Shown here piece by piece: positions 47,916 through 59,855 of a stretch of DNA of 64,000 nt. The position numbers and the translations under genes are program-made. Origin of the DNA: an uncultured SAR116 cluster alpha proteobacterium (GTDB lineage: Bacteria; Pseudomonadota; Alphaproteobacteria; Puniceispirillales; Marisalimonadaceae); assembly GCA_902625215.1 (NCBI GenBank), contig CACOAO010000005.1, positions 1 to 64,000 on the forward strand, read 5' to 3'. Numbering within the stretch: the first letter of the stretch is position 1; each line of letters begins with the position of its first letter. A model generated the notes under the pieces. It did not search any database, was not told the origin of the DNA, and saw only the letters and a list, made by a program, of their open reading frames with translations.

Positions 47916-49151
47916 ATGGAAAAAAATTATGTAAGTCACCTTGAGTGCTCAATCACTGGTAAGAAATATGAAGCTAATAAAATACATGGTCTATCTGACG
48001 CCGGAAGACCATTATTGGTTAGGTATGATTTGCAAACTCTGAAAAAAGAAGTTTCCAGAGATGATATTACTAATTCCAAGGTAGATGGTCTTTGGAGATA
48101 TTCACCACTTTTACCTGTTTTAGATCCAAAAGACAGAGTTACATTAGGTGAAACTATTACTCCATTAATTGAGTTAAACCGCACTGTTAGTTACTCTTCA
48201 AAGGATAAGGGTGTTGTTTTAATTAAAGATGAAGGAAGGTTACCCACGGGTTCTTTCAAAGCTAGGGGGCTATGTTTGGCAGTTTCAATGGCAAAGCAAT
48301 TTAAATTAAAACATCTAGCTATTCCTACAAATGGAAATGCAGGTGCTGCTATGGCTGCTTATGCTACAAATGCAGGAATAAAATCAACTGTGTTTTGTCC
48401 AGACGATACTCCACAAATCAATATAAGAGAAATTCAATTACTTGGAGCTGAAACCTTTTTAGTAAACGGCTTGATAAATGATTGTGGTAAGATAGTTGGT
48501 GAAGGTAAAGAAAAAGTAGGTTGGTTTGACGTATCAACTCTTAAAGAACCATATAGGATTGAAGGAAAGAAAACTATGGGTCTTGAATTGGCTGAGCAAC
48601 TTAACTGGGAATTGCCAGATGTAATTTTTTATCCTACTGGAGGGGGTACCGGATTAATTGGAATGTGGAAAGCATTCTTAGAATTAAAAGAGCTAGGATG
48701 GATAGATGGAAAATTACCAAAAATGGTAGCTGTGCAAGCAGATGGATGTGCGCCTATAGTCAAAGCCTGGAAAAACGGAAATGAGCATGCACCATTTTGG
48801 GAAAATGCATATACTAAAGCTGCTGGTATTAGGGTACCAATCGCTGTAGGTGATTTTCTTATAATAAGAGCAATTCGAGAAAGTGGAGGTTTTGCAATCT
48901 CTGTCTCTGATGAAGACATAATGGAAGCAAGAGATAGAGTATCTAATGTTGATGGATGCTTTTTGTGTCCTGAAGGGGCTGCAACAATGACTGCGTACGA
49001 AAAAACATTATCTTCAAAGTTAATATCAAAAGATGATAAAGTTATTCTGTTTAATTGTGCTACGGGATTAAAATATCCACTCCCAGAAGTTTCAAACAGA
49101 GTAGATAAAAATAATGAGATAAACTATAAAACTTTCATTAATTGCCCCTAG
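47916..49151 (+). CDS. Threonine synthase-like PLP enzyme
   Basis: A 411-residue fold-type II PLP enzyme of the threonine synthase/tryptophan synthase beta group. The PLP lysine is Lys115 in PTGSFKARG, the phosphate-binding GGGTGLIG loop is near residue 245, and an N-terminal Cys-containing segment (SHLECSITGKKYEANKIHG) resembles that of plant-like threonine synthases. Coupling to a tartrate-type dehydrogenase rather than to hom/thrB suggests a catabolic lyase or racemase (for example on hydroxyaspartate or threonine) instead of threonine synthesis. The 3' end overlaps the convergent FliL-like gene by 14 bases. Confidence 0.8.
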   Translation: MEKNYVSHLECSITGKKYEANKIHGLSDAGRPLLVRYDLQTLKKEVSRDDITNSKVDGLWRYSPLLPVLDPKDRVTLGETITPLIELNRTVSYSSKDKGVVLIKDEGRLPTGSFKARGLCLAVSMAKQFKLKHLAIPTNGNAGAAMAAYATNAGIKSTVFCPDDTPQINIREIQLLGAETFLVNGLINDCGKIVGEGKEKVGWFDVSTLKEPYRIEGKKTMGLELAEQLNWELPDVIFYPTGGGTGLIGMWKAFLELKELGWIDGKLPKMVAVQADGCAPIVKAWKNGNEHAPFWENAYTKAAGIRVPIAVGDFLIIRAIRESGGFAISVSDEDIMEARDRVSNVDGCFLCPEGAATMTAYEKTLSSKLISKDDKVILFNCATGLKYPLPEVSNRVDKNNEINYKTFINCP

Positions 49152-49749
49152 TTGTAATAGCAAATTTTTTAAAGTGAACCCCAAATATAATTGGATCTAA
49201 TTTTTTTGAATCTAAATATGCATTAAATTCATTTTTTATACTTTCAAGTAAATTATTTTTACCATCACTGCCCTGAAGTTTTTCAAAATTTATTTTGCTT
49301 ATTTCATCATAAACAATTTTTCTAAAATCAACATCATAGTCCGTTAAAAAATCCATTAACTGCTCACCTTTATAAGAGGAAAAAACTAAATCAAAACTTA
49401 TAAACGAATTTGAACCAGGCAAATTCGTCCAAAAACTTTTGTTTGCATTATCACCCATACCACCTATATCCCAATAGCTTAAAGAGGGAACAATGACTTT
49501 TCCGTCTGGCCCAATTTCTTGGACTATAGGTTTTTCTTCAGGTTCCATTCTCCCCATCTTTATTGCTTCTTCTTTCGCAACTTCATAAATATTAATTTCT
49601 TCTTCTATTTTTTTTTCTTCTTTAATTATTTGGTTACCAAAATAAAAAAAAATGAACGTTAAAACAGAAGAAAAAAATGCAATTAGATATGCGTATAGAT
49701 GTCTAATACTAGCAATTTTTCTTTTTAATGATATTTTCTGATTCGCCAT
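49138..49749 (-). CDS. FliL-like membrane protein
   Basis: A 203-residue protein with a single N-terminal membrane anchor (LYAYLIAFFSSVLTFIFFYFG) followed by a charged linker and a periplasmic domain ending in LLESIKNEFNAYLDSKKLDPIIFGVHFKKFAI, the pattern of FliL (a stator-associated flagellar protein) in which a G-K-x-x-L...I-K-x-x-x-N helix precedes the last strand. Similarity is distant and the first half is long. It lies next to a cNMP-binding gene (14 bases) and a few kilobases from flagellar genes, which supports but does not prove the name. Confidence 0.55.
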   Translation of the reverse strand: MANQKISLKRKIASIRHLYAYLIAFFSSVLTFIFFYFGNQIIKEEKKIEEEINIYEVAKEEAIKMGRMEPEEKPIVQEIGPDGKVIVPSLSYWDIGGMGDNANKSFWTNLPGSNSFISFDLVFSSYKGEQLMDFLTDYDVDFRKIVYDEISKINFEKLQGSDGKNNLLESIKNEFNAYLDSKKLDPIIFGVHFKKFAITTRGN

Positions 49750-49763
49750 TTTTAATTAATTTT

Positions 49764-50153
49764 CTATTTTTTTAAAGATTTATAAACATTTAATTCCAAC
49801 CAGTGTTTTTCAGCTAATGTATTTGCGTCACCTATTCTAAGAGATAATCCTCTTACTATTGCAGCTAAAACCGGATCAGCTTTATTCATCTTTTCTTTAA
49901 CGGTCTTTTCGTCAATAACTCTAATAATTGAATTAGTTACAGCTACAGCAGTTACTGTTCTTGGAGACTCAATAATGTGACCAACTTCTCCAAAAATTTC
50001 ACCTGTTTCAAGAATTCCCAACTCTAATCCATGTTTGGATTCAATTCTTACTTTTCCACTATGAATTAAAAAAATAAATTCTGCAGGATCGTTATGTGAG
50101 TATATTATGTCTCCAGCTTTAAAAGTTTTTGTTTCTTGATTATTTTTTCTCAT
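49764..50153 (-). CDS. Cyclic nucleotide-binding domain protein
   Basis: A 129-residue stand-alone cNMP-binding (Crp-type) domain without a DNA-binding module: TFKAGDIIYSHNDPAEFIFLIHSGKVRIE, then LETGEIFGEVGHIIESPRTVTAVA, which corresponds to the phosphate-binding cassette (the usual F-G-E-x-A-L is FGEVGHI). Whether it binds cAMP or c-di-GMP is not clear. Co-transcribed with the FliL-like gene, so it may act in motility control. Confidence 0.85.
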   Translation of the reverse strand: MRKNNQETKTFKAGDIIYSHNDPAEFIFLIHSGKVRIESKHGLELGILETGEIFGEVGHIIESPRTVTAVAVTNSIIRVIDEKTVKEKMNKADPVLAAIVRGLSLRIGDANTLAEKHWLELNVYKSLKK

Positions 50154-50847: not shown

Positions 50848-51606
50848 TTATCTAATAGGAACAACATTTTTTGGAATATCATTTTGTGAATATATTTTAT
50901 CCAATTCTCCCTTCAATACAAACTTTTCAATGAAAGATCCAAATTGTTTAAAATCAGTTTGGGCATTTGTATTAGTTTTATTTTCCCAATTTTCTACTTT
51001 ACCATTATAAAAATGTCTTACGCTTGCTAAATCTCTCAAGGCTGGACCTATTACAACATCATGATTTTTTAATCTTTCAGCCATTAATGAAAAATCTTTT
51101 TGACCAAAGGGAATCTTGTTAGGGCATACAATTAAGTGAGGGTATGATTTACCATATCTTGCTTTTACTTTATCCATACTTCTAATAAAATTCTCTGTTG
51201 GATATAAATCTGCATTACTGAGTGTGGTTGGAATTAAGACACAGTATCCTTCTGCAACTAGATTCCAAAGTCTTTGTGAACTACCTGCTGGTGTGTCAAC
51301 AATTGCAACATGTCCAGGTCGAAATTCATTTTGTTTAATGAATTGTTGAACAAGAGATATGTTAGTGTTTTCAAATGCAGGTGTGATTGGAAGAAATTCA
51401 ACGTTGATTTCTGGATTACTTTTAGACAAAAACTCAGTAGCTGTTCTTTGAAGATCGGTATCAATGACAGTAATATTTTGAGGAGGTATCCTTTCTGCCA
51501 AAGATCTAGCAAGCATTATTGATATAGTACTTTTACCAACACCACCTTTAACGTTTGCTACGAATATTGATTTAGCACAATTTATATTTTTGGCTTTATT
51601 AGGCAT
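50848..51606 (-). CDS. Orphan ParA/MinD-type ATPase
   Basis: A 252-residue SIMIBI ATPase. Deviant Walker A KGGVGKST is at residues 20-26, the A' Asp in VIDTDLQRTATEFL, and Walker B in VAIVDTPAGSS. It lacks a ParB-type neighbour; instead a small coiled-coil gene lies 13 bases upstream on the same strand. Orphan ParA proteins position cargos such as chemoreceptor arrays or flagella, or division sites. The closeness of motility genes makes such a role plausible, but FlhG is a separate gene here. Confidence 0.88.
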   Translation of the reverse strand: MPNKAKNINCAKSIFVANVKGGVGKSTISIMLARSLAERIPPQNITVIDTDLQRTATEFLSKSNPEINVEFLPITPAFENTNISLVQQFIKQNEFRPGHVAIVDTPAGSSQRLWNLVAEGYCVLIPTTLSNADLYPTENFIRSMDKVKARYGKSYPHLIVCPNKIPFGQKDFSLMAERLKNHDVVIGPALRDLASVRHFYNGKVENWENKTNTNAQTDFKQFGSFIEKFVLKGELDKIYSQNDIPKNVVPIR

Positions 51607-51619
51607 TATGATCTCCCAA

Positions 51620-51970
51620 TTAAAAACTTTTCAAATTTTTTATTAAGTTTATTGTTTTATCAATAATCTCCTTTTCTTTTGAGATTTTATTGATTGTATC
51701 TTCTGTAATTTTCTTTTTTTTCAAAAATACATCTTCATATGCTTTAAGTTCATTTTTTAATTTATTTTTCTCATATTCTAGGTTTTCTAACTTAATCATA
51801 ATTGAGTCAACTTTTGTGACGCAAGTAAGGAAATTTTCACCCATATCTGTATTATTTAACTTATTATCTTCAAAAGTATCATTACTAATATCGTCAATTA
51901 TTAAATCATCAGGCTTAACTTTTTTCCAGTTTCCACCTCTTCTTAAAATATTTATCTCATAATTATCCAT
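51620..51970 (-). CDS. Coiled-coil partner protein of the ParA-type ATPase
   Basis: A 116-residue protein. The N-terminal 45 residues are acidic and possibly disordered (a basic patch near LRRGGNWKKVKP could touch DNA or the ATPase), and residues about 55-112 are a continuous heptad-like coiled coil rich in Lys/Glu/Ile. It precedes the ATPase gene by 13 bases, hence the same operon. In ParA systems, a short partner with a basic N-terminus stimulates ATP hydrolysis; that parallel is inference. No family recognised. Confidence 0.65.
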   Translation of the reverse strand: MDNYEINILRRGGNWKKVKPDDLIIDDISNDTFEDNKLNNTDMGENFLTCVTKVDSIMIKLENLEYEKNKLKNELKAYEDVFLKKKKITEDTINKISKEKEIIDKTINLIKNLKSF

Positions 51971-52098: not shown

Positions 52099-52392
52099 TT
52101 ATTGGTTCTCAGTTTTGCATTTAAATGACTTTTGGCATACTGGAGATGGTTGAAAAACTGTTACATCTTTACCCTTACCTTGTCTTTTAAATATGCATTT
52201 ATATCCGTCTTTCACACCATCTTTCATGTTAACCTCTGTCTTTCTAAGTCTACAATTTTCATATTTTATATACTCTTTGGATAAAGTTTTAGATTGCCCA
52301 TAAATTTTTCCTTTTGAGAAAGATGGTGATATATTTAAACTTAAAATTATCACCAAGGTATTAAAAATAAAAATTTTTCTTAACCTTAACAA
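52099..52392 (-). CDS. Small exported cysteine-containing protein
   Basis: A 97-residue protein with a signal peptide (MLRLRKIFIFNTLVIILSLNISPSFS) and four Cys in the mature part (NCRL, YKCIF, PVCQ, FKCKT), likely two periplasmic disulphides. The start is TTG 52392, eight bases after a GGAG and just past the stop of the preceding gene; the longer frame from 52461 would overlap that gene. Not recognised. Last gene of a tight four-gene run beginning with the NHLP-like gene. Confidence 0.6.
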   Translation of the reverse strand: MLRLRKIFIFNTLVIILSLNISPSFSKGKIYGQSKTLSKEYIKYENCRLRKTEVNMKDGVKDGYKCIFKRQGKGKDVTVFQPSPVCQKSFKCKTENQ

Positions 52393-52405
52393 GTGTGATT
52401 CTCCA

Positions 52406-52597
52406 TTATTTTTTTTCATCTGATCCTGGCAAATATGCTTGGCCTTGAACAGCTTTTGCACCTATATCTTCAAAAAATTTTGAATTATCTTTTATAAAAG
52501 CTTCAATTTTTTCTTTAACTATATTTTCTGCCCCGTCAATGTCGTCTGCCTCTACCTCAATAAGACCATCAATCAACCAATGAACTTTATATGCCAT
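52406..52597 (-). CDS. Small hypothetical protein (63 residues)
   Basis: A compact acidic protein starting MAYKVHWLIDGLIEVEADDIDGAENIV, probably a beta-alpha-beta fold. GGGG six bases before ATG 52597 sets the start; an upstream in-frame ATG at 52609 coincides with the stop of the Sel1-type gene (TAATG), so coupling to that gene is likely whichever start is used. No family recognised. Confidence 0.6.
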   Translation of the reverse strand: MAYKVHWLIDGLIEVEADDIDGAENIVKEKIEAFIKDNSKFFEDIGAKAVQGQAYLPGSDEKK

Positions 52598-52608
52598 AAA
52601 TAACCCCA

Positions 52609-53211
52609 TTAATTATTAATTTTTTTAAATAGCTTAATAGATAAAGTCTGTGCATCAAGTAATTCTTTTTCGTTCAGGTTATCTAAAACTTCATCTCTTT
52701 TGGATTTAGCAGTTTTTATACCTTGAGCTACAGCTATGTTGTACCAGGTGTAAGCATTAATAAAGTCTGAAGGTTCAGTAAAGTTTTCATATAATTTAGC
52801 GATCTGAATAATTGCCCTTTTATCTTTTGTAAATGCTCTACTTTCTAGAAACTCCTTAAGTTGTGTTGTTATCTCTGCTACTTGTTTTTCTGTTAAATAA
52901 TTACTTAGTTTTTCTAAAATAATTGAAGACTTCTTCAAGCCTCCAAGTAGCGCTGATAATCCCCAAAAATAAGATTTTTCAAAATTTTGTGGTATTAAAT
53001 CACCAGAATATAAAATTTTAGAGTAAAGTAGCTGAGCATGTACATTATTCTGCTCTGACAATATGTGTAAGTTTTTGATTGCTTCTTGAAATTTTTTTTC
53101 TTGTAAAAGTAAATAAATATTTTCGATATTTTGTTTTTTATCATCTGCTAATGAGAAAAATGGTATAGAAATAAAAAGATATATAACAAAAATTTTTAAT
53201 AATTTTTTCAT
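52609..53211 (-). CDS. Exported TPR/Sel1-like repeat protein
   Basis: A 200-residue protein with a signal peptide (MKKLLKIFVIYLFISIPFFSLA) and Sel1-like helical hairpins, for example NNVHAQLLYSKILYSGDLIPQNFEKSYFWGLSALLGG and DFINAYTWYNIAVAQGIKTAKSKRDEV. Such repeats mediate protein contacts in the periplasm; MotX of Vibrio is a Sel1-type protein, which makes a stator-related role thinkable here. Gene spacing (27 bases from the NHLP-like gene) suggests one operon. Confidence 0.75.
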   Translation of the reverse strand: MKKLLKIFVIYLFISIPFFSLADDKKQNIENIYLLLQEKKFQEAIKNLHILSEQNNVHAQLLYSKILYSGDLIPQNFEKSYFWGLSALLGGLKKSSIILEKLSNYLTEKQVAEITTQLKEFLESRAFTKDKRAIIQIAKLYENFTEPSDFINAYTWYNIAVAQGIKTAKSKRDEVLDNLNEKELLDAQTLSIKLFKKINN

Positions 53212-53238: not shown

Positions 53239-53637
53239 TTATCTACCTGCTAACATCACTAACTGTAATTGAACAACCCTGATTTTAAAATTGGAGTTTT
53301 GTTTTTTTTCATATACTATGATTTTGGGCCTATCAGAATTTGGTTTTTGAAATTCTAAAATCATGTCCTCAGGTAAAAAAACACCATTGTCATTAAGAAC
53401 TTGTCTAGGATTAGATTTAAAGTTTTCTTTAAAAGATTTATCAATCCATATTCTTGCTAGGACTCTACCTAAGATATCAGGTAAATATTTTTTTACTTCT
53501 TCCCTATTTTTTAGAATTAAATCTTTGTCAACTAATTCTAGTGCTTGATTCACTTCGTTAGTTTTAAACTTTATAGGAAGTTTATTTTTTTTTTCATTAA
53601 TTTTAATTAAATCTGTACTTTTAGATGAAACACTCAT
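53239..53637 (-). CDS. NHLP-like (nitrile hydratase leader peptide-like) domain protein
   Basis: A 132-residue protein. Residues about 54-110 read ILGRVLARIWIDKSFKENFK...NPRQVLNDNGVFLPEDMILEF...KIIVYEKK, closely following the nitrile-hydratase alpha / NHLP leader pattern (A-x-x-W-x-D-x-x-F-K-x-x-L...P...L-x-x-x-G-h-x-h-P). NHLP leaders usually guide peptide maturases, but the 22-residue tail here (NSNFKIRVVQLQLVMLAGR part) has only one Ser and no Cys, so a classical azole core is absent and no maturase gene is near. ATG 53637 follows TGGAG. It heads the Sel1/small-gene operon in the motility region. Confidence 0.65.
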   Translation of the reverse strand: MSVSSKSTDLIKINEKKNKLPIKFKTNEVNQALELVDKDLILKNREEVKKYLPDILGRVLARIWIDKSFKENFKSNPRQVLNDNGVFLPEDMILEFQKPNSDRPKIIVYEKKQNSNFKIRVVQLQLVMLAGR

Positions 53638-53731: not shown

Positions 53732-53747
53732 TGGCATAAATATTGCT
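53732..53747 (+). promoter_or_regulatory. Sigma-54 promoter of the flgF-like gene
   Basis: TGGCATAAATATTGCT has the invariant GG (53733-53734) and GC (53745-53746) with exactly 10 bases between, and matches the RpoN consensus TGGCAC-N5-TTGCW almost fully. It lies 26 bases upstream of ATG 53773, leaving a short leader with AGGAG. Confidence 0.85.
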
Positions 53748-53772: not shown

Positions 53773-54591
53773 ATGTTATCAATTTTAAAAAGTGCCTTTA
53801 AATCCAATTCTCAAGAAATGGGAGTTGTATCACATAATATTGCCAATACCAATAGTACAGGTTTTAAAAAAAGTGCTACTAATTTCGAGCATTTTTATTC
53901 AAGACATTCTTCCAATTCACCAGATAAATTTTCAGGACTTGGAGTAAACTTAACAGCTCCTAGATTAAATATGTCTCAAGGTTCATTACAAAAAACCGAC
54001 GGTGCATTAGATCTTGCCGTAACAGGACAAGGTTTTTTTACTATTACACATCCAAATCAGGAAGATTTACCTTTTTTTACAAGAGATGGATCATTTAACA
54101 TTGATGCTAATGGAAATGTTTTAACAAATGATGGTCTTATGGTTATGGGGTTTCTTGCTGACGAAAATGGAGTTGTCAACGAAGCTGTGATCGAAAATTT
54201 AGTAATACCAACAACAAAGGCAAATGAGGATGGTACAAATTCTATTTTATCTAATATCAGTGTAGATAATTCAGGTAAGATAAAAGCAACATATGGCTTG
54301 GATAATGAAGAAATTATAGGCGCATTTGCTCTTTCAACTTTTACAAATGAAAATATGCTTACTCAAATTGGAAATAATAGGTATCGTTTTAACCAAAATG
54401 TTGGTGCTCCTGCATTTGGGGTCGGTATGCAAAATAATTTTGGTAAAATTGAAGCAGGCTATTTAGAAAGATCAAACGTTGACATCACATCAGAGATGAT
54501 TACCATGCTTAAAACGCAGCAAGCTTTCTCGGGTGTTTCTAGACTTCTTCAAACTGAAGTTGATATAACTAACAGATTAATTGATGGTTAA
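53773..54591 (+). CDS. Flagellar hook-basal body protein, FlgF-like
   Basis: A 272-residue rod/hook-family protein. The N-terminal flg_bb_rod region is MLSILKSAFKSNSQEMGVVSHNIANTNSTGFKKS, the middle has DLAVTGQGFFTI and FTRDGSFNIDANGNVLTNDG, and the C-terminal helix ends YLERSNVDITSEMITMLKTQQAF. Size and motifs fit FlgF (proximal rod), though FlgG or a short FlgE cannot be excluded. ATG 53773 follows AGGAG. It is a single gene with its own sigma-54 promoter, unlike the usual flgBC...FG operon. Confidence 0.85.
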   Translation: MLSILKSAFKSNSQEMGVVSHNIANTNSTGFKKSATNFEHFYSRHSSNSPDKFSGLGVNLTAPRLNMSQGSLQKTDGALDLAVTGQGFFTITHPNQEDLPFFTRDGSFNIDANGNVLTNDGLMVMGFLADENGVVNEAVIENLVIPTTKANEDGTNSILSNISVDNSGKIKATYGLDNEEIIGAFALSTFTNENMLTQIGNNRYRFNQNVGAPAFGVGMQNNFGKIEAGYLERSNVDITSEMITMLKTQQAFSGVSRLLQTEVDITNRLIDG

Positions 54592-54603
54592 TAACATAAT
54601 TTT

Positions 54604-54984
54604 TTATAGCAAAGGAATAAAAAATTTATATTCTAATATGTCTGAAATTAATTCCTTTTCTAGAAACAATATACCATTTTTGTTAATATTTAATTTATCA
54701 TATATCAATAACTCTAATCTAGCGGGCCGTTCATTTTTTAGTGATAATTGATTTTGTAAAGTATTAAAATAATCATTATTAACCTTTATTGAGCCAGACA
54801 TTACTGCTCTTTCATACTTTATAGTTATTTTATTTTGAAAGTTGCTGTTATCATTAACTATCATCAAGTTACATGTGCCTCTAGCAATGTTCAAAAGGCT
54901 ACAGGATAAATAAATACATTGTATTTGATGTTTACTGTCATAATGCGCATCTACAGTTTTTATGAGCATTTCTAATTTTTGCAT
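54604..54984 (-). CDS. Hypothetical protein downstream of fliA
   Basis: A 126-residue protein with no signal peptide or membrane segment. It looks like a mixed alpha/beta PilZ-sized domain (KITIKYERAVMSGSIKVNNDYFNTLQNQ; RPARLELLIYDKLNIN) but I cannot name it. It follows fliA by 8 bases on the same strand, thus fifth in the flhA-flhF-flhG-fliA operon, implying a motility function. No clear ribosome binding site at ATG 54984; ATG at residue 6 is an alternative. Confidence 0.6.
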   Translation of the reverse strand: MQKLEMLIKTVDAHYDSKHQIQCIYLSCSLLNIARGTCNLMIVNDNSNFQNKITIKYERAVMSGSIKVNNDYFNTLQNQLSLKNERPARLELLIYDKLNINKNGILFLEKELISDILEYKFFIPLL

Positions 54985-54992
54985 TGTGTAAA

Positions 54993-55697
54993 TTAATTAT
55001 CTTTTTTTAGTTGTTTTCTAATTTTTTTAATAGCTGAGGTTTTTATTTGAGAAACTCTTCCAGTAGTAACATCCATTACTTCTGCAATTTCGTAAATATT
55101 AAGTTCTTCAACAAAATACAGTTGTACAATAAGGGCCTCTTTACCCATTAGAGTTTTTAAAGCCTCTTTTAGATTGCTTCTAAGCTCTACCTCATTAACT
55201 TGTTCTTCAGGATTCAAGTCTTTAGTAATAAACCAACTAGAATAATCGTCGTATGAATCTTCTAAACTTTTAACAACACTTGCTTCAAATGCGTGAGACC
55301 ATTCCAAGTATTTTTCAGAAGACATTCCAAGTTCAGCAGCAACTTCATTTTCAAAAGGCTCTCGTCCTAATTTGTTTCTTAACAAATTAATTGCTTTTTC
55401 TGAATTTTTTTTGATTGTTATGGTTGTTCTATCTAGATTGGAGCTTCTTCTTAAAAAATCTAAAATTTCACCTTTAACTCTTATACTAGCGTATGAAGCG
55501 AATGACGCGTTTTTTTGAGGAATATAATTTTGTGCAGCAGAAATCAACCCTAGCATTCCAATTTGAATAATATCTTCTATATCGATTATAGAACTAACCC
55601 TTGCGTGCAGATGCCAAGAAATTTTTTTAACTAAATTTGTATGCTCTTGTATTAGTTGATTTATATTTGGCTTTACGATTTTAGAATAGCTATTCAT
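54993..55697 (-). CDS. fliA: RNA polymerase sigma-28 factor FliA
   Basis: A 234-residue sigma-70-family factor. Region 2 is LVKKISWHLHARVSSIIDIEDIIQIGMLGLISAAQNYIPQKNASFASYASIRVKGEILDFLRR; region 3 is LLRNKLGREPFENEVAAELGMS; region 4 is LMGKEALIVQLYFVEELNIYEIAEVMDVTTGRVSQIKTSAIKKIRKQL. This is the FliA/WhiG type that transcribes late flagellar genes. Its anti-sigma factor FlgM is encoded at 63016. In operon with flhG upstream (24 bases). Confidence 0.93.
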   Translation of the reverse strand: MNSYSKIVKPNINQLIQEHTNLVKKISWHLHARVSSIIDIEDIIQIGMLGLISAAQNYIPQKNASFASYASIRVKGEILDFLRRSSNLDRTTITIKKNSEKAINLLRNKLGREPFENEVAAELGMSSEKYLEWSHAFEASVVKSLEDSYDDYSSWFITKDLNPEEQVNEVELRSNLKEALKTLMGKEALIVQLYFVEELNIYEIAEVMDVTTGRVSQIKTSAIKKIRKQLKKDN

Positions 55698-55721: not shown

Positions 55722-56498
55722 TTAGTTATCAAAAAATTTAATTGAACCCGTATTATTACTTTCTATTGACAAAAGTTTTGAAGAAATTTCACTGAAAGCC
55801 TTTGTTTCTAAATCGTTGCTTCTGGACGAAACTAATGCTGTTCTTGAAATAATAGAATTTTTAACTTTTTGTGAATTAGGAATTTGTCCAACATATTTTA
55901 AATTTACATCCAAAAATTTATGTGTAATTGATTGAAACTTATCAAAGTTTAATTTAGCTTGAAGTGGTGATAAGGCCATATTTATGATTATTCCAAAATT
56001 ATTTATCTTATAATCTAAAAAAGAAGTTTTAATAAGAGTGTATGCATCAATAAAACTTGTAGGTTCACCAGTAATTACAACTATTACTTTATCTGCAGAG
56101 GCCAAAAAAGTCATAGATGATGCTTCAGCTCCAGCTCCTACATCAATTAGCATATATTCAGGTTTTTTTTTGAGATCATTAAAGCTTTTTATTATTTTAT
56201 GACGCTCAAGATCACTTAAATTCAGTAAATTATTTATAGCGTTACCACCTGATACAAATTTTAGATTATTTTTAGTTGTTGTTATTACTTTATCTAATGA
56301 CGAATTTCCGGTCACAAAGTCTTCTAGTGAAAACTTTGGATTAATTCCAAGCAGTATGTGTGCATTTGCCATTCCTAAGTCAGCATCTAAAAGTAAAGTT
56401 TCTTTATTTTGCATAGCAAGACTTAAAGCAACATTAACGGCAATCGTAGTCTTGCCTACTCCTCCTTTCCCAGATGTTATGGCAATTGTGTTGGTCAT
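55722..56498 (-). CDS. flhG: Flagellar number regulator FlhG (MinD-like ATPase)
   Basis: A 258-residue MinD/ParA-type ATPase: Walker A SGKGGVGKTT at the N-terminus, the A' motif DADLGMANAHILLGI typical of FlhG/FleN, and a Walker B strand YMLIDVGAGAEASSM. It limits the number of polar flagella together with FlhF. AAGGAAG lies before the ATG. Position between flhF and fliA is the standard polar-flagellum order. Confidence 0.93.
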   Translation of the reverse strand: MTNTIAITSGKGGVGKTTIAVNVALSLAMQNKETLLLDADLGMANAHILLGINPKFSLEDFVTGNSSLDKVITTTKNNLKFVSGGNAINNLLNLSDLERHKIIKSFNDLKKKPEYMLIDVGAGAEASSMTFLASADKVIVVITGEPTSFIDAYTLIKTSFLDYKINNFGIIINMALSPLQAKLNFDKFQSITHKFLDVNLKYVGQIPNSQKVKNSIISRTALVSSRSNDLETKAFSEISSKLLSIESNNTGSIKFFDN

Positions 56499-56520: not shown

Positions 56521-57714
56521 TCAATAACTAATATCTTTCATATATTGTGCCAAAACTTCGCTTTTTGCAAAAGCAATAGAACCAATAATTGACCTTGATC
56601 CTGACAAAATTCCGATTTTACAATTTAATTCGGCAAAAATCGACAACTCTTCAGCACCTATATGTGTTTCATCCAATTTTGTAAGTGCAATGGTTGGATA
56701 TGTATTTTTATAAAAATTCATTGTTGAATTAATCATATTTTTATTTGAACTTGCGGGTATTGCTAATAAATTTGAATATTTTTTATTTAAAGTTATTTTT
56801 TCAAGATAGTCTAAATATCCTGATAGATTTTTGTTTTCTTGTGATACATCAATAATTAATTTCTTTTTATTCTTATTTACATCAATGTAGTTAATTAATT
56901 CATTTAATGATGATAGCGAAGATATGTTTAAGTTTAGTAATTTCCCAAAATTTAAAAGTTCAGAATGATCTGTTGATTTTGGTCCAAAATTTAAGATTGA
57001 AAGTTTATCTTTTTCATTTGCTGATAGCAAATTATCTAAAATAAACGAAGAAATTTTTGCGCTTAAAGTAGTTTTTCCAGAGCCAGAAGGGCCGTTCAAA
57101 AAGAGAATGTCAGAATTTATTATTTGATCTTCATATGGAAACACTAATTTTTTTCCCAAGTAATGATAAAAAAATAACTCTGGATTTGTTATGTCTTCTT
57201 TGGTAGTACATTTTTCTCTGAATTCTGACACAATCTTTTTTGAAAAACCTTTTTTTAATAAATCAATTGTAAATGATCTATCATTATGTTTACTTAATTC
57301 GTCAATATCAGAAATAACCATATTTTTTAACAAATTTTCTATTCTATTAGTAAATTTCTCAAAGGTTTTAAAATCAACAAAATTTACATCAAAACTATTA
57401 TTACTAAAATCTGTAAGTTTTTTTGAGTCATCATTTTTTATTATATTTTGTTTTTGTATAATATTATTATATTTTCTACTCTGAATATCTTTTTCTAAAT
57501 TATGATTTGAAAATAACTTACTAAAATTATTTTTTTGTTTATTGATTTTTTTTGCGTTGGATGAAGCTATATCCTCAATATTATTAGAACCTAATATTTC
57601 GATTTTTCCATTCACTTTTTGAGTTTTTAATATTACAGCTTCTTTACCAAGGATTCTTGTGATTTCATCCATTGCTGATAAACTATCATCTGCAAGAACT
57701 TTATGCTGTGTCAT
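56521..57714 (-). CDS. flhF: Flagellar GTPase FlhF, with degenerate G domain
   Basis: A 397-residue SRP-type GTPase homologue. N-terminal B domain, then a G domain with P-loop GPSGSGKTT (about 208-216) and the G4-type TKLDE (345-349). The expected G3 motif D-T-A-G is replaced by DVSQ (about 289-292), and the G5 region is altered. GTP hydrolysis may therefore be impaired. ATG 57714 is set by GGAG; a longer frame from 57726 would overlap that site. Gene order flhA-flhF-flhG-fliA supports the name. Confidence 0.87.
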   Translation of the reverse strand: MTQHKVLADDSLSAMDEITRILGKEAVILKTQKVNGKIEILGSNNIEDIASSNAKKINKQKNNFSKLFSNHNLEKDIQSRKYNNIIQKQNIIKNDDSKKLTDFSNNSFDVNFVDFKTFEKFTNRIENLLKNMVISDIDELSKHNDRSFTIDLLKKGFSKKIVSEFREKCTTKEDITNPELFFYHYLGKKLVFPYEDQIINSDILFLNGPSGSGKTTLSAKISSFILDNLLSANEKDKLSILNFGPKSTDHSELLNFGKLLNLNISSLSSLNELINYIDVNKNKKKLIIDVSQENKNLSGYLDYLEKITLNKKYSNLLAIPASSNKNMINSTMNFYKNTYPTIALTKLDETHIGAEELSIFAELNCKIGILSGSRSIIGSIAFAKSEVLAQYMKDISY

Positions 57715-57740
57715 TTTTTTCTCCATAAGTTTTTAATAAT

Positions 57741-59855
57741 TTAATTTTTTTCTTCTTCTGAACCAATATTGGCGACTACTTCTATTTTTTTGTTATCTGG
57801 TAGTTCAGTAAATGAAAGGACATCTAATGAAGGAATATGTTGTCTAAGCATGTGTGACAAATCTCTTCTAATCACAGGTGCAGTAATCATTACCGCCTTT
57901 CTGTTTTCACTTTGCATTTTCTCCATTACCGTATTTATTCCTGATACAATCTTTTGAATTAGGCTAGCCTCAAGTATGAGACCATTTGCTCCTGTTTGTT
58001 TGGCAACATTAACTATAAGTTGCTCTAGATCTGCAGTGAAGGTTATTATTGGAAGAGCGCTATTTAAAGGCGCTATTTGTTGTATTAATAATCCGGAAAT
58101 TGTTGGTCTTATGGCTTCTGCTAATTCTATAGGTGTCATATTTTTAACATTTTGACTAGCGAGTACCTCTAATATACGCTTTAGGTCACTTATAGGCATA
58201 TTTTCACTCAATAAAGTTTTTAAAATTGTAGTCAAAATATTCAATGGGACTAATTTTGGTACTGTTGATGATACCAATTGAGGCGATGATTTTGCTAGAT
58301 TATCTAAAAGTAACTGAACATCATCTTGACCAAGTAATTCAGCTGCCTGCTTAGAAAGAATTTGATTTAAATGTGTAGCAATGACTGCTTCAGGTTCTAC
58401 AACCATGTATCCTAAATTCTCAGCTCTTGCTTGTTGGTGAGGCTCAATCCAAGTTGCATCCATATTAAAGCTAGGATCCTTAACATCTGTTCCTTCAATT
58501 TTTGTTTGAGCATTATCCCCTGGGATAGCTAAAAGTAATTGAGGAAAAATTTTATCCTCAGCTACTATTTCTTGTCCAATTCTTATCCTATAATGATTTG
58601 CTTCTAGTGATAGATCGTCTCTAATTCTTACTTGAGGCACAATAAAGCCTAGCTCTTTTGATACTTGTTTTCTTACACCAGTTATTCGAGCAATCAGCGG
58701 TCCATCTTTTTCATCATCTACTAATTGTATTAATCCATAACCTAATTGCATTGATATTGACGAATTATCAGCAATATCAGACAGTGAGACAATATTATCC
58801 TCTTCATTTTCAGGTTTATGAATATCCTTATTATTTTCATAATCACTCTCATCATTTTTATTAAAAGTTTGAGTATTGTTTCTAATTATCCACCAGACAA
58901 AGAAAGTTAAAGCAGATCCTATTAGAAATAATGTGTTTGGCATACCAGGAATTAAACCTAATAGAAACAATACACATGCGCTAGGTAACCAAGCTTGTTT
59001 AACTCCAATTTGAGAACCAATCTGCTTAGATAAATCTTGGCTAGTAGAGACTCTAGTAACAATTATTGCAGTTGCTATTGCTAGCAGTAAAGAAGGTATT
59101 TGAGCAACTAATCCATCACCTACCGACAAAATTATATAATTTTCAGCTGCGACTGAAACAGGTAAATCATGTTGAGCAATACCTATTACAAGCCCACCTA
59201 TTATATTTATAAGGAGTATTAAAATACCAGCAATCGCGTCACCTTTTACAAATTTTGACGCACCATCCATAGAGCCATAAAAATCTGCCTCTTTAGCTAT
59301 ATCATCTCTTCTTTGTTTGGCTTCCTCACTAGTTAAAAGGCCAGCATTTAAGTCGGCATCTATAGCCATTTGTTTTCCTGGCATAGCATCCAATGTAAAT
59401 CTTGCAGAAACTTCAGAAACTCTTCCAGCTCCCTTTGTAATAACTACTAAATTTATTATTATTAATATAGCAAATACGAAAATGCCAACAACATAATTAC
59501 CAGCAATAACAAACTCTCCAAAAGCTTCAATAACTTTGCCCGCAGCATCAGGTCCAGTATGACCAGCACTTAATACTATTCTGGTAGATGCTACATTTAA
59601 ACCAAGTCTTAAAATAGTTGCAAATAAAAGAACCGTAGGAAAACTTGAAAAATCTAAAGGTCTAAAAGTATGAATGGAAACCATTAATATTAACAATGAT
59701 AGTAAAATATTTGTTGTAAAAAAAACATCTAATAGTATGGAGGGAAGTGGTATCACCATCATAACCATTAACATTAATATAGCTACAGGTAACCCAAATG
59801 GCTTTATTTTATCGGATGTAAAAAATTGTGCACCAAAAGTATTTGTCAAATTCAT
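57741..59855 (-). CDS. flhA: Flagellar export gate protein FlhA
   Basis: A 704-residue export-apparatus protein. Eight membrane segments fill the first 340 residues, with the FHIPEP signature region (PTVLLFATILRLGLNVASTRIVLS and ARFTLDAMPGKQMAIDADLNAGLL) between them, and the C-terminal cytoplasmic domain follows (LGYGLIQLVDDEKDGPLIARI... up to LSFTELPDNKKIEV). Complete and of normal size. AAGGAG precedes the ATG. Its sigma-54 promoter is at 59946-59959. Confidence 0.97.
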   Translation of the reverse strand: MNLTNTFGAQFFTSDKIKPFGLPVAILMLMVMMVIPLPSILLDVFFTTNILLSLLILMVSIHTFRPLDFSSFPTVLLFATILRLGLNVASTRIVLSAGHTGPDAAGKVIEAFGEFVIAGNYVVGIFVFAILIIINLVVITKGAGRVSEVSARFTLDAMPGKQMAIDADLNAGLLTSEEAKQRRDDIAKEADFYGSMDGASKFVKGDAIAGILILLINIIGGLVIGIAQHDLPVSVAAENYIILSVGDGLVAQIPSLLLAIATAIIVTRVSTSQDLSKQIGSQIGVKQAWLPSACVLFLLGLIPGMPNTLFLIGSALTFFVWWIIRNNTQTFNKNDESDYENNKDIHKPENEEDNIVSLSDIADNSSISMQLGYGLIQLVDDEKDGPLIARITGVRKQVSKELGFIVPQVRIRDDLSLEANHYRIRIGQEIVAEDKIFPQLLLAIPGDNAQTKIEGTDVKDPSFNMDATWIEPHQQARAENLGYMVVEPEAVIATHLNQILSKQAAELLGQDDVQLLLDNLAKSSPQLVSSTVPKLVPLNILTTILKTLLSENMPISDLKRILEVLASQNVKNMTPIELAEAIRPTISGLLIQQIAPLNSALPIITFTADLEQLIVNVAKQTGANGLILEASLIQKIVSGINTVMEKMQSENRKAVMITAPVIRRDLSHMLRQHIPSLDVLSFTELPDNKKIEVVANIGSEEEKN

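Follow-up and report, generated by a model that had tools for sequence, protein, structure and literature searches.

By definition, members of the NHLP family have a conserved region ending in Gly-Gly, followed by a hypervariable core with abundant Cys, Ser, and Thr residues, and are linked to an exporter (PMC2887384). The NMR structure of a proteusin leader consists of the elements α1–α3, β1, and β2 (PMC10858898). In Vibrio, the stators of the flagellar motor are held by the H ring (FlgT, FlgO, and FlgP) together with the T ring, which is composed of MotX, bearing SEL1 repeats, and MotY, and FliL stabilizes the stators (PMC9093738). We found no paper linking NHLP proteins or their fold to flagella, and the titles and abstracts retrieved for SAR116/HIMB59 and Puniceispirillum contain nothing on motor parts. 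Here, we analyzed an NHLP-fold protein encoded beside motility genes in a 64,000-nucleotide stretch of DNA (the window) from a SAR116-type marine alphaproteobacterium. Our original prediction assigned it the NHLP/nitrile hydratase alpha pattern and considered it either a repurposed leader fold in secretion or stator assembly or a new RiPP type.

Sequence Relationships of the NHLP-Fold Protein

The gene of the NHLP-fold protein (positions 53239..53637, minus strand) encodes 132 amino acids from an ATG at 53637, and the homologue alignment places the start of most close homologues (MSVxSKST...) at the equivalent ATG. Residues 54–97 match the NHLP leader model TIGR03793 (E=1.5e-7) with 31.1 bits, which does not reach the curated cut-off of 50.9 bits, followed by the weaker matches to the RiPP models NF038399, TIGR04351, and TIGR04509. 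Each of the 26 aligned homologues individually matched TIGR03793. The Pfam NHase_alpha model (PF02979) gave only 13.2 bits (E=0.06), under its cut-off of 27.2; the best stretch spans only profile positions 39–72 of 184, and no above-cut-off match over the catalytic metal-binding part was obtained. Searching the PDB with the single sequence ranked nitrile hydratase alpha (1v29) first with an E-value of 0.014, and the profile of 26 homologues retrieved 1v29 at 8.3e-6 and the proteusin precursor 8tb1 at 8.8e-5. The protein is genuinely related to the NHLP leader at the profile level, and a common ancestry with the N-terminal part of nitrile hydratase alpha is likely. The protein lacks a signal peptide, contains a short conserved ALVP-like motif within its disordered N-terminus, and ends with the hydrophobic, Cys-free tail named in the original prediction.

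Relatives were absent from both viral contigs and plasmids, and the phylum-wide profile search revealed no clear homologue outside Alphaproteobacteria. Weak matches in four genomes (G251, G288, G713, and G784) were generic NHLP-like stretches and were rejected as homologues; the two class-level ones (G251 and G288, E about 1e-4) were left out of the homologue count.

Predicted Structure and Conservation

The AlphaFold2 model computed from the alignment has a mean pLDDT of 80, exceeding 90 for residues 41–110, with a disordered N-terminal region of about 30–40 residues. Helices are predicted at residues 45–65, 67–75, and 77–83, and strands at 92–97, 105–111, and 118–125. Residues 45–111 are predicted to form the three-helix bundle and β-hairpin of the NHLP family, whereas the third strand (118–125) and the C-terminal RVxxLQLVMxAGR are family-specific additions beyond the NHLP leader fold. 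A Foldseek search against the PDB returned 8tb1 as the top match with a probability of 0.96; because the E-value is 0.17 and the TM-score on the target 0.46, the structural match backs the sequence result and is by itself no proof. Profile search and structure modeling both recovered the originally predicted relationship, the former with NHLP and nitrile hydratase matches and the latter with an NHLP-like fold instead of another structure.

The gene is conserved as a whole folded protein. The alignment of its tail is gap-free for 25 of the 26 sequences; L049, the exception, has a gap of two residues, and L044 and L060 diverge in sequence. For 24 close genes, the overall pN/pS is 0.15, with 0.28 for the N-terminus, 0.14 for the helices, 0.01 for the β-hairpin, and 0.11 for the tail. 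The Gly-Gly cleavage motif is absent here, and instead of a hypervariable Cys/Ser/Thr-rich core we found a conserved C-terminal end (LQLVMxAGR). Neither YcaO nor an NHLM exporter (TIGR03796) above the cut-off was detected in any of 20 genomes, 18 of which are at least 90% complete. YcaO was the one maturase covered by this genome-wide search, and no maturase was recognized among the inspected neighboring genes.

A Four-Gene Cassette in the Flagellar Region

Directly downstream of the NHLP-fold gene, the window encodes an exported 200-residue Sel1/TPR-repeat protein with a MotX-like architecture (52609..53211, minus strand). The third gene (52406..52597, minus strand) encodes a 63-residue cytosolic protein with the motifs KVxWIIDGxxExxA ... 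AIQGxAYLPG, which belongs to no known family, including those of Pfam, and could be modeled only with low confidence (pLDDT 69). It is overlapped by the fourth gene (52099..52419, minus strand), whose product is small and exported and carries four invariant cysteines (CRL...C...C...C). All three operon partners named in the original prediction are therefore present. The Sel1 protein scores 18.6 bits against the MotX model NF047621, far below the cut-off of 330; among 16 Sel1 members, three match this model at E≤0.01, and other Sel1/TPR models outscore it in most members. Because of the sub-cut-off score and the better scores of other models, we use "MotX-like" as an architectural analogy.

The motility genes beside the cassette, also part of the original prediction, could be assigned. 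Divergent from the cassette, a FlgF-like flagellar rod protein (53773..54591, plus strand) is preceded at about 26 bases by a sigma-54-type promoter, TGGCAT-N5-TTGCT (53732..53747, plus strand). Of 71 homologous upstream regions, 35 contain this site, and none was found on the NHLP side in 105 upstream regions. A conserved protein of unknown family (54604..54984, minus strand) separates FlgF from a FliA-type sigma factor (54993..55697, minus strand) and is present in every flagellar-type locus on a contig long enough to include it. Next follow, all on the minus strand, an FlhG-type ATPase (55722..56498), named from its sequence and position, an FlhF-type GTPase with an SRP54 domain (56521..57726), and the flagellar export gate FlhA (FHIPEP, 57741..59855). 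Two H-ring components complete this side of the flagellar cluster on the plus strand, an FlgP-like lipoprotein of the LPP20 family (PF02169, 60079..60600, 31.4 bits) and FlgT with its FlgT_N domain (PF16548, 60610..61773, 39.9 bits), both above their cut-offs. On the other side, a FliL-like, stator-associated protein (49138..49749, minus strand) is conserved downstream of the cassette. Three minus-strand genes lying between the cassette and FliL are conserved in close relatives (L071-L107), namely those for a coiled-coil protein (51620-51970), a ParA-like ATPase (50848-51606), and a cyclic-nucleotide-binding protein (49764-50153).

Gene Order Among Relatives

We compared 80 loci from named genomes, comprising the SAR116 cluster, one HIMB59 record, and other marine Alphaproteobacteria, with several doubtful bin names. 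The Sel1 gene lies immediately downstream of the NHLP-fold gene in 79 of them, and in the remaining one (L097) the gene is truncated at the contig edge. Most loci have a spacing of -4, -1, or 0 to 7 bases between the two genes, predominantly within -4 to +4 and often with an ATGA overlap, whereas the closest relatives of the window have about 26–33 bases. The genes for the 63-residue and the exported four-Cys proteins usually come after the Sel1 gene.

The surroundings of this invariant pair fall into three arrangements. In 54 of the 80 loci, FlgF is encoded divergently upstream and, as far as the contigs reach, is followed by FliA, FlhG, and FlhF; FlhA lies further upstream, often just past the range drawn. 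In 24 loci of f12 or HIMB59-type genomes, the neighbors of the cassette are bactofilins, mostly three, and an M23 peptidase in place of flagellar genes; FlhA and FlgT are present in the f12 genomes tested. Bactofilin-type loci include L031 (10402-11498 and 12202-13581), L108-L124, L127-L129, L132, L133, L135, and L141, and a transglycosylase-like gene lies close to the cassette in f12/HIMB59-type loci. Such company suggests a link to envelope scaffolding. The last two loci are flanked by MotA at one end and by FlgT, FlgP, and FlhA at the opposite end, with MotB and FliD added beside MotA in L149.

Three divergent relatives (L158, L049, and L044) are also found in flagellar surroundings. In L158 (G234), the order is FlgP, FlgT, FlgA, FlgM, NHLP, and Sel1, followed by flagellins and MotAB, and the 63-residue gene is located near a sigma-54 regulator. 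L049 has FlgM-, FliD-, and MotB-like genes nearby; these names, like all others given without a Pfam call, rest on reading the sequence. The third, L044:9542-9934 (G066), is a divergent second NHLP-fold copy that has no Sel1 partner and adjoins a flagellin gene. Remote relatives repeatedly encode exported Lcl_C-domain proteins close to the pair (L137:1503-2042, L149:3322-3819, L158:12128-12607, and L031:16982-17482), with the domain assigned by Pfam in L137 and L158; in L137 and L149, these proteins are encoded directly upstream of the pair.

Co-Occurrence With FlhA and FlgT

Within the order to which the window belongs, the NHLP-fold protein and FlhA occur together in 85 genomes, and about 40 genomes have neither. 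The protein alone was found in seven genomes and FlhA alone in four (Fisher 1e-22, computed without regard to shared ancestry). We read these 11 exceptions as assembly breaks because, in every case, the gene that was found is located close to the end of its contig or the contig is not long enough for both. G013 and G008, two genomes of the same genus with 90–99% completeness, contain neither the protein nor FlhA.

Among 386 sampled alphaproteobacterial genomes, 11 have a clear homologue and 14 have FlgT, and all 11 homologue-containing genomes are FlgT-positive (Fisher 6e-19, again ignoring shared ancestry, with several separate lineages in agreement). These 11 genomes span the order of the window and the families f12, f22, and f103. 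Three FlgT-positive genomes (G270, G361, and G517) have neither the NHLP-fold protein nor its Sel1 partner, and the NHLP-fold protein is missing from flagellated relatives that do not belong to the FlgT group.

Possible Role in the Flagellar Motor

The association of the NHLP-fold protein with flagella is very likely. Because its conservation extends to the very last residue, no enzymes for peptide production surround it, and it co-occurs with an uncommon type of motor, it seems to be an old fold recruited to a new task in swimming. We consider it fairly probable that this non-RiPP protein is an accessory protein of FlgT/H-ring-type motors, acting together with the MotX-like Sel1 protein to scaffold or assemble stators, and regard a direct role on the stator as a more tentative proposal, somewhat less likely than not. 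The NHLP-fold protein would be made in the cytoplasm together with its exported Sel1-repeat partner, which resembles MotX in size and repeats, and the pair, together with the 63-residue and four-Cys proteins, would most likely help to position or retain stator units. In this scheme, the Sel1 protein would sit in a periplasmic scaffold, and the NHLP-fold protein would be a cytoplasmic adaptor engaging a motor or export component through its C-terminal strand and a binding surface resembling that of the leader, although its binding partner and final compartment are speculative. An adaptor or assembly role in the cytoplasm is the most natural one given the lack of a signal peptide, and export by the flagellar apparatus via the disordered N-terminus is possible. 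Since the Sel1 partner has a signal peptide and the NHLP-fold protein does not, direct contact between them is not obvious.

The repurposing and the flagellar association in the original prediction are supported, and its stator assembly goes as far as fitting the company of FlgT, FlgP, FliL, MotAB, and the MotX-like Sel1 protein. The accessory-motor role has to accommodate the 24 loci beside bactofilins and M23 peptidase, the three FlgT-positive genomes without the pair, and the low MotX score of the Sel1 protein. In addition, MotY_N (PF18393) was found in none of 20 genomes in a search run without a positive control.

The strongest alternative, which we nevertheless regard as unlikely, is a factor that acts in the cytosol on flagellar assembly, targeting, or regulation and lies outside the stator scaffold, for example, a chaperone of export substrates or a partner of FlhF/FlhG or FliA, with the Sel1 linkage reflecting co-regulation. 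Such a factor would agree with the missing signal peptide, the small size, the disordered N-terminus with its conserved ALVP-like motif, and the proximity of FlhF-FlhG-FliA in 54 of the 80 loci. However, the f12 genomes and the remote relatives keep the Sel1 tie even though their cassettes are apart from FlhF/FlhG/FliA, and the presence of the protein follows FlgT, not flagella in general. Less probable still is a cassette serving the cell envelope generally, as a peptidoglycan or polar scaffold, with a loose tie to flagella. The bactofilin triplet, M23 peptidase, and transglycosylase-like neighbors in 24 loci speak for it, but G008 and G013 lack FlhA and the protein alike, and every clear class-level homologue resides in an FlgT-positive genome. 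The new RiPP type of the original prediction, in which the NHLP part would be a leader and the hydrophobic tail would be cut off and possibly modified, is highly improbable despite the true match to NHLP leader models and the proteusin fold, as it conflicts with the missing Gly-Gly, with a nearly gap-free tail under strong purifying selection in contrast to hypervariable RiPP cores (PMC2887384), with a predicted third strand belonging to the fold, and with the lack of YcaO, above-cut-off NHLM exporters, and recognizable maturases in the genomes and neighborhoods searched.

Returning to the accessory-motor role, we see evenly balanced prospects for its broadest form, in which the RiPP-leader/nitrile-hydratase fold is a dedicated part or assembly factor of the periplasmic-ring motor in abundant SAR116-/HIMB59-type bacteria and the Sel1, 63-residue, and four-Cys proteins belong to a previously undescribed stator-scaffold module. 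If true, the NHLP fold would have been recruited into a molecular machine, beyond its use as an enzyme fragment and a RiPP handle, and four uncharacterized genes would be added to the flagellar components known from abundant marine bacteria. Genome mining would then call for caution, since an NHLP-like match lacking Gly-Gly need not mark a RiPP precursor.

Comparison With Known Systems

The NHLP leader of proteusin-type precursors (TIGR03793; MprE7, PDB 8TB1) shares with our protein the ARxW.D..F....DP...L...G..LP signature and the three helices with a β-hairpin, and these elements follow one another in the model as they do in the proteusin leader. The differences are the sub-cut-off score, the absence of Gly-Gly and core, and the extra conserved strand and C-terminus; unlike in proteusin loci, we found no maturation or export genes, and the conserved partner is an exported Sel1 protein. 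The likeness to the N-terminal part of nitrile hydratase alpha (PF02979, 1V29) is at the motif level over about 30 residues; the window protein is far shorter, and the match spans only the helical part (residues 54–87). As for Vibrio-type motors, no NHLP-fold protein was reported there in the literature examined, and the MotX model does not identify our Sel1 protein as MotX. Like these motors with the MotX/MotY T ring and the FlgT/FlgO/FlgP H ring, however, the window encodes FlgT, FlgP, a nearby FliL, and an exported Sel1-repeat protein of the size of MotX.
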